NCBI RefSeq assembly: GCF_002563655.1
Contig: NZ_PDIY01000001.1
Coordinates: 3,942,001 to 4,006,000 of the forward strand
DNA length: 64,000 nt
DNA from: Bacillus sp. es.034
GTDB taxonomy: Bacteria; Bacillota; Bacilli; Bacillales; Bacillaceae_B
Direction: 5' to 3'
The notes under the pieces are model-generated. The model did no database searches and had not been told where the DNA came from. It saw nothing but the letters and a program-made list of their open reading frames with translations. Within the stretch, counting starts at the first letter, position 1. Every line of letters starts with the position of its first letter. A program made the translations under genes and the position numbers. This document shows positions 45,726 through 62,346 of the stretch, one piece after another.

Positions 45726-46232
45726 ATGTACGATCACAGACAAATATTCCCCGGCTTGCCCGGCGGAGGATCCGGCGGCGGATTTCCTGGTTTTCCCGGG
45801 GGAGGACAGGGTTCCGGTGGAGGCTTCCCTGGTATTCCTGGATTTCCAGGCGGCGGTGGGGGTTCAGGTAGCGGCGGTTTTCCCGGCATCCCCGGTTTTC
45901 CCGGTGGAGGACAAGGAGCACCAAGCTCACCACCCCCTTCAGGCGGGCAGGGCGGACAAAACCAACCACCACCCGGGCCACCACCGAACTTCCAACCGCA
46001 AAAAACGGCACTTCAAGGAACGCAGGGTGGACCGAGCACCTTCGCAGTCGACCCAGGTGCCATCAGAAGATGTTTATTCCGATATACCTATATATGGTTA
46101 AGAAGAGATGCTTTCTGGTTCTACCCAGTGTTTGTCGGCCGACGTTCCATTGCCGGGTGGAGATGGATCGGATTCACATGGGTGTACTTCGGCATCGATT
46201 TGGATAAAATCGAATCCTTTACGTGCGTGTAG
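45726..46232 (+). CDS. Gly/Pro-rich protein with conserved aromatic C-terminal domain
   Basis: A 168-residue protein. Residues about 9-65 are collagen-like Gly/Pro/Phe repeats (GFPGIPGFPGGG, occurring twice), 66-95 are Pro/Gln-rich, and the last 60 form a conserved domain with IRRCLFRYTYIWLRRDAFWF followed by GRRSIAGWRWIGFTWVYFGI and a Cys near the end. There is no signal peptide. The family is widespread in Bacillaceae but I know no function. GAGGAGG precedes the ATG. It overlaps a stop/start zone with the next gene (8 bp gap) and may be a spore or surface protein; that is inference. Confidence 0.7.
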   Translation: MYDHRQIFPGLPGGGSGGGFPGFPGGGQGSGGGFPGIPGFPGGGGGSGSGGFPGIPGFPGGGQGAPSSPPPSGGQGGQNQPPPGPPPNFQPQKTALQGTQGGPSTFAVDPGAIRRCLFRYTYIWLRRDAFWFYPVFVGRRSIAGWRWIGFTWVYFGIDLDKIESFTCV

Positions 46233-46240
46233 GTGTAGCC

Positions 46241-46894
46241 ATGCATTCCTATCCGTACTATCGAACCAATCAATCAAATGGCATCATAACCGTGAGCGGG
46301 GAACATACATTATATGTGGATCCGGATCAGGCTCTTGTATCGATTGGAATCGTTACGAATGATAAAGAGCTTGAAGCTGCCCAAAACGAGAATCAGCAAC
46401 TTTCCAGGTCGGTCGTTCAATCCCTATTAAATAACGGGGTGCGCCGCCAGGATATCCAGACGTCCACCTACCAAGTACTTCCACAGTACCAATTTGAGGA
46501 AGGAAAACAAACGTTCACCGGTTATGAAGTTCGACAAGTATTCAAGGTCACTGTTAGGTCGATTGAAAAAGTCGGGAAAATCATTGATGATGCCATAAAG
46601 AGCGGGGCCAATCGTGTGGAAAACATTCAATTCATTCAGTCTAACCCCCTCGAGTCCTACCAGCAGGCTCTCGCCCTAGCCTATCAAGAGGCGTATCAAA
46701 AGGCACTCACATTATCCGGCCAATCAAATCAACAGCTTAATCCGCAGCCCAAATCCATTACGGAACAATCCCGGCCCTCAGCCGTTCCCTTCATGAACAC
46801 CGCCTATTTAAAGGCAGCCGACGAAAGTACGGCCGTTCAGCCGGGTCAAATCGCCGTCACAGCCATCATCACAGTAGAATTCAGGACCCATTAA
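46241..46894 (+). CDS. SIMPL-domain (DUF541) protein
   Basis: A 217-residue SIMPL-domain protein, with IITVSGEHTLYVDPDQALVS followed by IGIVTNDKELEAAQNENQ at the start and the repeated beta-alpha pattern (TYQVLPQYQFEEGKQTFTGY). Family members are often periplasmic or secreted, but here no clear signal peptide precedes MHSYPYYRTN. The start at 46241 has AGGTG at good distance, 8 bp after the upstream gene, so the two are co-transcribed. Function is not known in Bacillus. Confidence 0.8.
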   Translation: MHSYPYYRTNQSNGIITVSGEHTLYVDPDQALVSIGIVTNDKELEAAQNENQQLSRSVVQSLLNNGVRRQDIQTSTYQVLPQYQFEEGKQTFTGYEVRQVFKVTVRSIEKVGKIIDDAIKSGANRVENIQFIQSNPLESYQQALALAYQEAYQKALTLSGQSNQQLNPQPKSITEQSRPSAVPFMNTAYLKAADESTAVQPGQIAVTAIITVEFRTH

Positions 46895-46934: not shown

Positions 46935-47346
46935 CTGGAGGGACGGACCTATAGGGGAAAGAAGGCTTAATTGCATCAACTGACCCCCGCTTTTCCCTCC
47001 CCAATTAGGTCAGGTAAGGAAGAATTGCGTCATTTTAGCCCTTGATCGGATTGCGTCGTTTTTTTTCATTATTGCGTCATTTCTCATGGTGATCGCGTCA
47101 TTTTCTTAATGAATTGCGTTTTTTCCATTAATCCCCATAGATACCCGCGCAACACTCTTAAAAAAACCCTACCGACCCCTCTTCAAATCCTTGTCCTTCA
47201 CCTAGGCAGCCACTTTTTCTGCAGAAATGGAGACTACCTGCCAGGATATTCTTTATTTATATGATGGTACGTGACGTTCTCTTCCTTCTCAATTCGGTCT
47301 GCCCACGCTTCATTTTTTTCCTATTAAATTTCAAGAACTCAATCAG
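46935..47346. other. Gene-free region between convergent SIMPL and proC genes
   Basis: Contains a lone AGGGACGGACCT 12-mer (46939-46950), the phased ATTGCGTCA array (47024-47121), and no coding frame with a ribosome binding site. A terminator for proC was not clearly recognised here. Confidence 0.7.
47024..47121 (+). repeat. Phased array of ATTGCGTCA cores, mostly 21 bp apart
   Basis: Cores start at 47024 (ATTGCGTCA), 47050 (ATTGCGTCG), 47071 (ATTGCGTCA), 47092 (ATCGCGTCA) and 47113 (ATTGCGTTT). The steps are 26, 21, 21 and 21 bp. Weaker copies may lie at 46970 (ATTGCATCA) and 47004 (ATTAGGTCA). The spacer sequences are unlike each other, so only the core and its distance are kept. On the minus strand three of the units read as heptads starting NDAI, but stops interrupt the frame. 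Confidence 0.8.
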
Positions 47347-48153
47347 CTATTCACCAAGCGACTTCGATTTCCGCCCGCAGGCTTCCATAGCCGATAAAAC
47401 AGCCCCCTTGAACTTGTGTTTCTCCAAGGTCGCCACTGCTTCAATCGTTGCTCCTCCGGGTGAACAGACGGCATCTTTCAGCTCTCCTGGGTGGGTGCCG
47501 GTTTCGAGTACCATTTTAGCTGCCCCAAGCACTGCCTGTGATGCCAGCTGATAGGCGAGACTCCTCGGGATGCCCTGGAGGACCGCTCCATCGGCGAGAG
47601 CTTCGATGAACATAAACACGTAAGCAGGAGAAGAGCCGCTCACAGCCGGTATCGCATCCATTAAGCTTTCCTCGATCTTTTCCGCTTTTCCGAAGCTTTC
47701 AAGGATTGCCTGGACATGTTCCAAATCGCTTTCTGTTATTTCTTCATTCACACAGTATGCAGTCATTCCTTCCCCCACAAGACTCGGAGTATTCGGCATC
47801 GTCCGTACGATTTTGGCAGAAGGGGAAATCTGCTCTTCCATCCATTCAATCGTGATTCCAGCCGCAATCGTAATGATGATGCTGTCTTTTTTCAAGGAAT
47901 TCTTGATGGATTCGATCAGTTCCTTGTATTGATCCGGTTTGACCGCAAGGAATACAATATCAGAAAAGGCCGCTACATCCAGATTGTCATCCGTCACCTT
48001 CACTCCAAATTTCTCTCTGACCATATCCAGGGTTTCTTGAGTCCTGGCACTCGCACGAACAGATTGTCTGTCCACCAGCCCGGACTTCAATATCCCTCCC
48101 ATGATGGCCTGCGCCATATTTCCGCATCCTATAAAGCCAATGGTTTTATCCAT
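47347..48153 (-). CDS. proC: Pyrroline-5-carboxylate reductase
   Basis: A 268-residue NADPH enzyme completing proline synthesis. The N-terminal Rossmann motif is IGFIGCGNMAQAIMGG (residues 4-19); MPNTPSLVGEGMTAYCVNEE and the dimer signature AVSGSSPAYVFMFIEALADG follow, with HPGELKDAVCSPGGATIEAV near the C-terminus. ATG at 48153 is preferred over GTG at 48162 by spacing from GAGAGG. It ends the array region and is monocistronic. Confidence 0.92.
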   Translation of the reverse strand: MDKTIGFIGCGNMAQAIMGGILKSGLVDRQSVRASARTQETLDMVREKFGVKVTDDNLDVAAFSDIVFLAVKPDQYKELIESIKNSLKKDSIIITIAAGITIEWMEEQISPSAKIVRTMPNTPSLVGEGMTAYCVNEEITESDLEHVQAILESFGKAEKIEESLMDAIPAVSGSSPAYVFMFIEALADGAVLQGIPRSLAYQLASQAVLGAAKMVLETGTHPGELKDAVCSPGGATIEAVATLEKHKFKGAVLSAMEACGRKSKSLGE

Positions 48154-48279
48154 TTCTTTCACCTCTCGTTTGTATGTAAACAGTCCTTAGCATCATACCA
48201 AACTTTCACTCCTATTAAAACGTTTCATCTTTTCACTTTTAAAAAAGCTCAGGGAGACCACTCCTCCCTGAGCCTTCCA

Positions 48280-56479: not shown

Positions 56480-56569
56480 ATGGGTACTGTCATGATCGTA
56501 GGTGTATCTTTAGTATTCTTAGTAGCGATTTTCACTGCTGGATATAATGATAAACCAGGCTCAAACTAA
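56480..56569 (+). CDS. 29-residue membrane protein
   Basis: ATG at 56480 with GGGAGG upstream encodes MGTVMIVGVSLVFLVAIFTA followed by GYNDKPGSN. One transmembrane segment and a short polar tail. The TAA stop falls in the first bases of the folded repeat that follows, so the repeat inserted exactly at the gene's end. Divergent from prkA; the 270-bp gap between them holds both promoters. Function unknown. Confidence 0.65.
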   Translation: MGTVMIVGVSLVFLVAIFTAGYNDKPGSN

Positions 56570-56688
56570 AGCGGAGGCGGCTCGTTCAGTCCCGACAAGC
56601 ATAAGACGAATCAACCGGAAAGGCGCCTTTTGCCTTTTTGGTTGGTTTGACTTATGACCTCGAGGGACTAGCCGCCGGAGCTGGATGT
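56564..56688 (+). repeat. AAAGCGG folded repeat, tandem unit 1 (125 bp)
   Basis: Begins AACTAAAGCGGAGGCGGCTC and ends GCCGCCGGAGCTGGATGT. Helix 1 AGC-GGA-GGCGGCT with AGCCGCC-GGA-GCT (a symmetric GGA/GGA loop), helix 2 AGTCCC/GGGACT, helix 3 CATAAG/CTTATG, helix 4 AATCAACC/GGTTGGTT, helix 5 AAAGGC/GCCTTT. The whole unit can fold into one long irregular hairpin with a 5-nt bulge (CGTTC). Confidence 0.9.
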
Positions 56689-56813
56689 AACTAAAGCGCA
56701 GGCGGCTCGTTCAGAGGCGACAAGCATAAGGTGAACCTGCCGGAAAGGCGCTCTTTGCCTTTTTGGCAGGTTTAACTTATGACCTCGAGCCTCTAGCCGC
56801 CGGAGCTGGATGA
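56689..56813 (+). repeat. AAAGCGG folded repeat, tandem unit 2 (125 bp)
   Basis: Same layout, exactly 125 bp after unit 1, and a third AACTAA follows at 56814. Helix 2 is AGAGGC/GCCTCT and helix 4 is AACCTGCC/GGCAGGTT. These differ from unit 1 but are fully paired. The GGA loop is GCA/GGA here. Confidence 0.9.
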
Positions 56814-56823
56814 AACTAATACT

Positions 56824-60449: not shown

Positions 60450-61121
60450 GTGGAAATCACAATTGATTCATCCATTACGAGTAAAATACCCGATTTCAAA
60501 GTCGGATTCATTCAGTACCATCATATCGAAGTGGGCCCTTCTCCTCAAATGCTGAAAGGCAGACTTCAGCTGTTTCAGGAATCGATCTTCTTTGATCTTC
60601 ATGATAAGAGCGTCACTGAACTTGATGGGATTGCCGCATGGAGGGAAATCTTCAAGATTACAGGAAAAGATCCGAACCGCTACCGTCATTCAGCCGAGGC
60701 CCTTTTCCGTCGTGTTAAAAAACAAAACTATCTGACTACCATTAACTCTGCCATCGATCTCAATAACTTCTTCTCCCTTCAATACGAAGTGCCAATCGGC
60801 ATCTACGACTGTGCGGGGCTCAAAGGTAATCACATCGAGTTAAAAGTCGGGGAAACAGGACAAACCTACACAGGGCTCAACGGTCGGGAAAACTCCCTCG
60901 AAAACCTCATCGTCGCCTGTGACGGGGGCGGACCTTTCGGAAGTCCATTCGTCGACTCTGATCGTGCACCTGTCGGGGAAGAGACGAAAAATGCCGTACA
61001 GATCATATTTTTGAAGCCATCCCTTTCTAAAGAAGAAAGCGGGAAACTGACGAAATCGTTGATGGATATCTTCATCGGGATTCATGGTGGGGAAGGTTCG
61101 TTTGAAGTGGTTGTTGGATAG
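60450..61121 (+). CDS. B3/B4 tRNA-binding domain protein
   Basis: A 223-residue protein consisting of a free-standing B3/B4 domain as in the beta subunit of phenylalanyl-tRNA synthetase. The RVKKQNYLTTINSAIDLNNF and FFSLQYEVPIGIYDCAGLKG segments are typical. Free-standing members have been linked to editing or tRNA binding. The start is GTG at 60450, after TGGAGGG. It diverges from queG and converges with the sugar operon; the phased array follows its stop. Function in Bacillus is unknown. Confidence 0.82.
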   Translation: MEITIDSSITSKIPDFKVGFIQYHHIEVGPSPQMLKGRLQLFQESIFFDLHDKSVTELDGIAAWREIFKITGKDPNRYRHSAEALFRRVKKQNYLTTINSAIDLNNFFSLQYEVPIGIYDCAGLKGNHIELKVGETGQTYTGLNGRENSLENLIVACDGGGPFGSPFVDSDRAPVGEETKNAVQIIFLKPSLSKEESGKLTKSLMDIFIGIHGGEGSFEVVVG

Positions 61122-61143
61122 TGAATTCTTCAACTCAATGTTG

Positions 61144-61285
61144 GCGGTGGCCGGGTTCAAACTGAATCCGGCCGAAATTCACCTTAATCCGGCCGTTCCT
61201 ACCGGTTATCCAGCCAAAATCACGTTGAATCCGGCCATTTTTTGTGAAAATCCAGCCGTTTCAGCTAATAATCCAGCTAATTAAC
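61144..61285 (+). repeat. Phased array of AATCCGGCC cores, exactly 21 bp apart
   Basis: Core GGCC or its variants start at 61149 (GGCC), 61170 (GGCC), 61191 (GGCC), 61212 (AGCC), 61233 (GGCC), 61254 (AGCC) and 61275 (AGCT). Six steps of exactly 21 bp. From the second copy on, each core is preceded by ATCC. The spacers are unlike each other. In one plus frame the units read as heptads beginning NPA (YPA once) and run to a TAA at 61282-61284, mostly with synonymous changes; the frame has no clear ribosome binding site. Confidence 0.9.
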
Positions 61286-61333
61286 AATAAATGTAAACCC
61301 TAAGCAACTACTCGAGACAATCACACTTACTCC

Positions 61334-61365
61334 TAAAAAAAAGAGAGCCCCAAGGACCCTCTCCC
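61334..61365 (-). terminator. Terminator of the sugar operon
   Basis: On the minus strand GAGAG pairs with CTCTC with an inner CC/GG, followed by eight T. Confidence 0.75.
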
Positions 61366-61377
61366 TTCAAAAAAAAC

Positions 61378-62346
61378 CTACACCCACCACATATCCGACG
61401 GCTGCTCCTCAATCAAGATCGATTTCAGATTCTTGACGGCACGGCCGAATCCTTCTTCAATCGACATGATCGGATCTTCATGCTCGATGCTTACGACATA
61501 ATCATACCCGAATGTGCGCAGGGCACTCATCATATCCGACCATTCCTGCAAGCTGTGTCCACACCCCACTGAACGGAAGGACCACGCCCTTGTTTGGATG
61601 CTGCCGTATGGCTGCATATCGGTCAGACCGTACATATTGACGTTGTCCTGGTCAATGTATGTATCCTTTGCATGGAAGTGGTGGATCGCATTTTCTTTAC
61701 CAAGGATCTTGATCGCTGCAACCGGATCGATTCCCTGCCACCAGAGATGGCTTGGGTCCAGGTTGGCTCCGATCGCATGGCAGGTTTCTTCACGAAGCTT
61801 CAATAACGTATACGGAGTATGTACAAGGAAACCTCCGTGAAGCTCGAGGCCGATTTTTACATGATGATCCTCTGCAAGCTTCCCGATTTCTTTCCAATAC
61901 GGAATCAACTTTTCTTCCCACTGCCATTTCAGGATATCCCCGTATTCATTCGGCCAAGGTGAAACTGGCCAGTTCGGATGCTTGGCTCCTTCATGGTCCC
62001 CTGCTGTTCCGGAGAAGCAGTTCACGACAGGTACGTTCATCAACCCGGCAAGCTTGATCGTTTTCTGAAGCGCCACATGGGATTCTTCCGCAAAGGCAGC
62101 ATCAGGTGAGATTGGATTTCCGTGACAACTGAAGGCACTGATTTCAAGGCCCCTTGACGTCACTTTCTCTAAGTACTCGTTTCTCTTTTCTTCGCTTTCT
62201 AAAAGGGCATCCAGGTCACAATGGGCATTTCCGGGATATCCTCCCGTCCCGATTTCCACTGTGTGAAGTCCGGCTTCTTTTACATAATCAAGCATTTCAT
62301 CAAGATTTTTCTGTGAAAATAATACGGTAAATACGCCTAGTTTCAT
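61378..62346 (-). CDS. Sugar phosphate isomerase/epimerase (xylose isomerase-like TIM barrel)
   Basis: A 322-residue TIM-barrel protein of the AP_endonuc_2/IolE-like family. Metal-site segments are VKIGLELHGGFLVHTPYTLL (Glu), GANLDPSHLWWQGIDP (Asp, His), AIHHFHAKDTYIDQDN (His-His/Lys) and VVSIEHEDPIMS (Glu). It is probably an epimerase or dehydratase of oxidised sugars. It lies 12 bp downstream of a Gfo/Idh/MocA dehydrogenase and 1 kb from a second one; together they resemble pathways for 3-keto sugars or inositol-like polyols. GGAGG precedes the ATG. Confidence 0.85.
   Translation of the reverse strand: MKLGVFTVLFSQKNLDEMLDYVKEAGLHTVEIGTGGYPGNAHCDLDALLESEEKRNEYLEKVTSRGLEISAFSCHGNPISPDAAFAEESHVALQKTIKLAGLMNVPVVNCFSGTAGDHEGAKHPNWPVSPWPNEYGDILKWQWEEKLIPYWKEIGKLAEDHHVKIGLELHGGFLVHTPYTLLKLREETCHAIGANLDPSHLWWQGIDPVAAIKILGKENAIHHFHAKDTYIDQDNVNMYGLTDMQPYGSIQTRAWSFRSVGCGHSLQEWSDMMSALRTFGYDYVVSIEHEDPIMSIEEGFGRAVKNLKSILIEEQPSDMWWV

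Follow-up and report, generated by a model that had tools for sequence, protein, structure and literature searches.

Helix-phased arrays of short conserved cores past gene ends in Bacillus-type bacteria

Results

A six-unit array lies between two convergent genes

The window, by which we mean the whole stretch of 64,000 nucleotides that was analysed, contains an array of six 21-bp units on the plus strand (61165..61290). It is flanked by the 3' ends of two genes, one on the plus strand for a 223-aa B3/4-domain protein (60450..61121), found in all 36 genomes of the genus, and one on the minus strand for a 322-aa xylose isomerase-like TIM-barrel protein (61378..62346); the genes adjoining the locus are B3/4, TIM barrel and QueG. 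The units follow the pattern AATCC[GA]GC[CT][GA]WWWYnnnnnnn, in line with a consensus of 224 internal units from 48 arrays, and have their first bases at 61165, 61186, 61207, 61228, 61249 and 61270. An earlier note on this DNA, made from the sequence alone, had described seven cores at 21-bp steps. Six of these cores and the 21-bp steps hold, with ATCC[GA]GC[CT] starting at 61166, 61187, 61208, 61229, 61250 and 61271 in five equal steps; the positions originally given (61170, 61191 and so on) were 4 bp too high. The presumed first copy is a decayed seventh slot at the ragged end (plus strand, 61144..61164, GCGGTGGCCGGGTTCAAACTG), which begins GCGGTGGCCGGGTTC and keeps the register without an ATCC, as a remnant only. 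The spacers are unlike one another and the array sits between two gene 3' ends, both as the note had said.

At the other end, the terminal unit AATCCAGCTAATTAACAATAA is followed by ATGTAAACCC (plus strand, 61270..61300), as in the terminal-unit profile of the 48 arrays, so that this fixed end consists of a core plus an imperfect palindrome (TTAACAnTAAATGTAAA). A terminator-like hairpin and T-run of the minus-strand gene (61335..61364, GAGAGGGTCCTTGGGGCTCTCTTTTTTTT on the minus strand) points toward the fixed end; it was recognised by eye, its imperfect stem being unscored by a strict terminator scan. The regularity of the array is far beyond chance. When the whole window was divided into 220-bp tiles and scored for 8-mers recurring at exact 21-bp steps, tiles with the array scored 5, one other tile (around 47050) scored 4, and the remaining tiles scored 2 or less.

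The tile around 47050 contains a second array on the plus strand (47024..47133), built on a different core, ATTGCGTC, in units of the form ATTGCGTC[AG]TTTY. Its units begin at 47024, 47050, 47071 and 47092, with a terminal unit ATTGCGTTTTTTCCATTAATC at 47113, giving steps of 26, 21, 21 and 21 bp, and it sits between a plus-strand gene (46223-46894) and a minus-strand gene (47347-48162) that reads like a pyrroline-5-carboxylate reductase. Elsewhere in the window, at 56563-56819, a 125-bp repeat is present in 2.1 copies with 85% identity, and a similar sequence (gcggaggcggcttggtcagaggcgacaagcataa) occurs upstream of several relatives' arrays (L195, L211, L219, L234, L250). This is probably another dispersed repeat family.

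The array belongs to a dispersed family with a fixed frame

The same core at the same spacing, which the earlier note suggested seeking elsewhere, is present both in this genome and in related ones. The pair pattern ATCCRGCY-13-ATCCRGCY has 17 matches in this genome and none reversed, and allowing mismatches resolves seven arrays. Among 35 other genomes of the genus, 16 carry the CRGCC core, including those of Rossellomorea aquimaris and R. vietnamensis, with up to 77 pairs in one genome (G016). The number of array loci per species of the genus runs from 0 to about 25, and several genomes of the genus yielded no array of any tested core. Beyond the genus, the CRGCC core with unlike spacers recurs in Domibacillus, Sporolactobacillus vineae and Bacillus sp. 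PAMC26568. Most matches outside Bacillales (Streptomyces, MAGs and others) are a different thing, namely near-identical tandem repeats with conserved spacers, and were set aside. A mobile element carried on phages was rejected, given that among 2.9 million viral contigs the three-core pattern matched 2 and the ACTAC pattern 0. Pairs of ATCCGGCCCAATTGAAAAAGTATCCGGCC were also seen, within or beside ORFs, at L001/L191 (G000:C1:574544) and G000:C1:4423232 and again in G016; they probably lie outside the array family.

Aligning 48 arrays from five genomes gives the internal unit A A T C C R G C C G W W W Y n n n n r A w, in which positions 15-18 carry almost zero information. The last unit differs, reading AATCCAGCC[GA]WTTWAC before a weak palindrome; at the orthologous end in G032 the palindrome is all but perfect across 39 bp, and an inverted core follows on its far side. 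The end opposite the fixed end is ragged and decayed. Exactly six units are present in 39 of 70 arrays, and 146 of 185 core-to-core distances are 21 bp and 29 are 42 bp, with steps of 20, 22 and 24 bp also seen. The element is some 12 helical turns long, in about six units of two turns each. Neighbouring units tend to alternate between GAAA and GTTT (116 alternations against 89.9 +/- 5.3 expected), GAAA-GAAA neighbours occurring only 5 times, and the alternation was repeated in a separate genome, G016 (53/93, P=0.012). Three local peculiarities were also noted: at L207 (G023:C5:185000-185700) an array and its flank, about 196 bp, are repeated four times in tandem; at L249 (G006:C11) a run of GGATT units stands beside the fixed end; and in many loci the stretch from terminator to array is G/T-rich and C-poor on the minus strand.

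Arrays follow gene ends in a preferred orientation

The window array is convergently flanked, and the earlier note had raised convergent gaps as a possible rule. Our own tally of about 69 CRGCC arrays, with ORFs of at least 80 aa from a simple caller, does not bear this out: in the array's own frame the flanking genes are -/- in 44 cases (tandem, antisense to both genes), +/+ in 16 (tandem, sense), +/- in 8 (convergent) and -/+ in 1 (divergent). The arrays therefore avoid divergent gaps and are not specific to convergent ones, most of them lying in tandem gaps. The fixed end is mostly 30-150 bp from a 3' end facing toward the array. Of 70 arrays, 35 have a terminator-like hairpin pointing at the fixed end and 9 have one pointing at the ragged end, both counts being lower bounds under a strict stem rule.

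Different cores occupy the same frame

The ATTGCGTC (GCGTC) core family, to which the second window array belongs, occurs in 19 of the 36 genomes of the genus. Its steps alternate between 20 bp (53 times) and 21 bp (55 times), for a mean of 20.5 bp, which means that what is kept is helical phase and not a length of seven codons. This agrees with the earlier proposal that the cores face one side of the helix. At three places (G000:C1:1646639-1646838, which is L192, and L247 and L249), CRGCC and ATTGCGTC arrays share a single intergenic gap, standing back to back in opposite orientation about 100 bp apart.

Further cores appear at orthologous positions. The gap between the B3/4 and TIM-barrel genes holds 21-bp arrays with other cores in three species of the genus: CGAGCCG in G024, TCTATGAG in G015 and TCTTCGA in G020, the last of which is found in G023 as well. 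Similarly, a gap between genes for 103-aa and 230-aa proteins is occupied by a TCTATGAG array in G015 and by CRGCC arrays in G013 and G014. Several cores also coexist in one genome (TATGA, TTGCC and CTGCC in G015; CRGCC and GCGTC in this genome). The simple form of the idea that one species-wide core is read by one factor was rejected, since two or more cores can coexist in a genome. Because cores differ within one genome, one recognition protein would suffice for all arrays only if it read mainly the frame; there would have to be several readers, or a reader depending mainly on AWT...WWW.

The general frame of the family is A-W-T, 6-7 core letters and W-W-W, repeated every two helical turns. 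When this shared frame was turned into a core-blind pattern (AWTC-N5-GWWWY, three times at 21 bp), matches came from 21 of 299 genomes of the order, spread over eight genera and each showing a core of its own (among them TCTCG, ACTAC/TCTAC, CACGA/CAAAA, GGGCN and CCGCC), and the reversed control matched none. One of the 21, G278, is an identical tandem repeat that may be unrelated to the family. Outside the order only 2 of about 360 genomes matched, one of them again through an identical tandem repeat. A search of open-access full text returned no description of the arrays. As far as searched, they form a previously undescribed family of non-coding DNA elements that follow gene ends in many Bacillus-type bacteria.

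AT tracts are helically phased and the core is conserved

In each of 61 arrays chosen by core alone, the periodicity of AT content is strongest at 10.5 bp (z>2 in every case and 8.8 on average, relative to dinucleotide shuffles). Power is 14.7 at 10.5 bp and falls to 0.5-0.9 at 9-9.5 and 11.5-12 bp. Most other core families show the same phasing, a test that is partly circular for several of them, as the search pattern itself demanded AT at those positions; the arrays of G015, Sporolactobacillus, Domibacillus and PAMC26568 were found without an AT-demanding pattern. A wedge model, using a dinucleotide table (Bolshoy et al. 1991), gives a mean predicted ratio of end-to-end distance to contour length of 0.61, compared with about 0.92 for random DNA (z -5.2). 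As a sanity check, phased A-tracts gave 0.28 against 0.92 for random DNA. The arrays are thus predicted to be intrinsically curved, with their AT tracts on one face of the helix.

The earlier note had also proposed aligning orthologous loci to see whether the core stays while the spacers change, and it does. We compared 24 orthologous array pairs without requiring a core in the partner; because some sequences recur in more than one pair, the counts are partly dependent. Divergence was lowest in the core (10.7%), intermediate at positions 11-14 (WWWY, 22%) and at R6 (25%), and highest in the spacer (34%). All 14 changes at position 12 are A<->T, and such changes make up 36 of 62 at positions 11-13 compared with 32 of 180 in the spacer. 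Together, these patterns indicate conservation of the core letter by letter, and of the WWW block in its AT content.

The arrays do not behave as coding sequence

A step of 21 bp is also seven codons, and the alternative put forward originally was that the units read as NPA heptads, considered here as the end of a small gene. The window array does lie in an open frame, a 66-aa plus-strand ORF (61084..61284) that reads as NPA heptads, and several core differences are synonymous. Against this, stops interrupt the NPA frame in 13 of 48 arrays and are not depleted, with 13 observed and 18.7 +/- 3.6 expected from column composition; the TATGA core of G015 places a TGA stop in every unit of that frame; steps of 20, 22 and 24 bp occur; and the alternating 20/21-bp steps of the second core, though two helical turns, cannot be codons. 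A Pfam search of the 66-aa ORF returned zero matches, and we judge it not to be a gene. Coding heptads are refuted for the family, and we assign them a negligible probability.

Tests at the RNA level gave a signal confined largely to one core. For CRGCC arrays, the minus strand has a somewhat more stable fold than shuffled sequence (mean z -2.5), and since this is absent from most other core families, the signal follows the GC-rich core and not the family. A search of Rfam returned no match except one chance microRNA hit. A CsrA-type GGA motif on the minus strand was dropped because other cores lack it, as was a match to the 3' end of 16S rRNA, which the reverse core CGGCTGGAT resembles, because other core families do not have it.

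Discussion

How might such arrays work? Starting from the observed family, with its period, phasing, conservation, position and missing coding signal, we favour, with belief and doubt in about equal parts, a curved nucleoprotein platform at gene ends, bound by a putative sequence-specific protein. AT tracts every half unit (about 10.5 bp) would curve the duplex and bring all cores to one side. Because core letters that are irrelevant to bending are conserved, we infer that a sequence-specific DNA-binding protein occupies the arrays, probably side by side along the cores. The bound protein would stabilise about 126 bp of bent or wrapped DNA just past a transcription terminator. As a guess, the array could then act as a local topological or architectural element, of the gyrase or nucleoid-protein type, or as an insulator against read-through. 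Counted against this platform are the GAAA/GTTT alternation, the differing cores and the genomes of the genus without arrays.

A broader version of the platform would extend it to the whole order. Here, fixed-size, helix-phased curved arrays at gene ends would form a Bacillales system whose core-reading factor, or factor family, drifts between lineages, so that sets of arrays switch dialect together while position, phase and frame stay. The two intergenic spots at which cores differ across species (the B3/4 gap and the 103-aa/230-aa gap) bear on this idea, which we offer tentatively and consider less likely than not.

Other explanations account for part of the same evidence. The arrays could be a family of intergenic repeats of the STAR or REP kind, selfish or spread passively, that persists in harmless gaps past terminators with no host function. 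Many dispersed copies, the variation in locus number between species of one genus, the placement in gene-end gaps, several core subfamilies per genome and losses at orthologous loci (L149, L150, L159, L160) would all fit such a family. However, orthologous arrays are old and vertically kept with the core conserved over the spacer, the helical phase and six-unit size are strict, and none of transposase-like end structure, target duplication or near-identical copies was seen, which makes passive spread unlikely in our estimation, if still a serious contender. A transcribed array acting through its structure or an RNA-binding protein, in termination, antisense control or as a small RNA, would explain the fixed orientation to terminators, the potential of neighbouring GWWWY blocks to pair as they alternate between GAAA and GTTT, and the folding of the CRGCC minus strand. 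Yet that folding is missing in most other cores, Rfam offers only its chance hit, and arrays occur both sense and antisense to flanking genes; we regard an RNA element as improbable.

Tags for DNA uptake or recognition, such as those of Haemophilus and Neisseria, are short motifs that come in lineage dialects and have helically spaced AT tracts. They would likewise produce cores that differ by lineage within a constant frame, AT tracts at a distance of about one turn and an association with terminators. Tags of this kind would be expected as hundreds to thousands of dispersed single copies, whereas the arrays are clustered and number in the tens, and several unrelated cores share one genome. 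We also know of no uptake specificity in Bacillales, and consider this explanation very improbable.

If the curved platform is real, a large and well-studied group of bacteria has a standard DNA element at its gene ends, one that annotation has overlooked because its sequence changes by lineage while its geometry stays. It would offer a way into the handling of topology or read-through where genes end on Gram-positive chromosomes, and its dialects would form a natural series with which to track down the reader protein. Moreover, helical frame can replace sequence as the criterion in searches for interspersed repeats.

Comparison with known systems

With CRISPR the arrays share regular repeats, unlike spacers and one decayed end; instead of 23-50-bp repeats with foreign-matching spacers of similar length, they have cores of 8-10 bp and spacers of 11-13 bp that are conserved between species without turnover. 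The open frame, avoided stops and steps in multiples of three that mark protein-coding repeats do not characterise the family. Uptake sequences (USS/DUS), which are linked to terminators (PMC1852404), resemble the arrays in their lineage dialects, AT tracts and gene-end position but are far more numerous and scattered as single or inverted copies. In prokaryotic intergenic regions, curved DNA shows AT periodicity near the helical repeat as a diffuse statistical signal (PMC4060949; PMC516772). The arrays have this periodicity in common with it, their AT tracts being in phase at 10.5 bp and retained through W<->W changes at positions 11-13, and differ in being discrete elements with a sequence-conserved core.

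REPs are palindromic hairpins in alternating orientation that spread with RAYT transposases, and BIMEs bind gyrase and other proteins. Protein binding and regular spacing are described for these elements (PMC2817692). Like the arrays, the REP/BIME elements of enterobacteria are extragenic, lie at gene 3' ends and have lineage-specific sequences; in place of alternating palindromes, the arrays are direct repeats in one orientation with only the terminal unit palindromic. STAR of Staphylococcus is a 14-bp sequence, T(G/A/T)TGTTG(G/T)GGCCC(C/A), separated by at least 40 bp into tandem repeats of about 50 nt, with spacers near identical within a locus and a function that is not known (PMC3532100). 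The two share an organisation as intergenic, interspersed direct repeats (70 arrays lie in ORF gaps) with conserved cores, locus-specific spacers, vertical stability and copy number that varies by species. In place of the 14-bp TNTGTTGNGGCCC-type repeat, the array cores are AATCC[AG]GCCG or ATTGCGTC[AG]TTT, and in place of long gaps with near-identical spacers the step is 21 bp with unlike spacers. Phased AT tracts, interchangeable cores, a fixed palindromic end and the two-helical-turn step are features of the arrays. Since the defining features of STAR and BIME were tested and are lacking, we file the family as a variant of the interspersed intergenic repeat element, whose nearest described relatives are STAR by anatomy (PMC3532100) and BIMEs by position and possible role.
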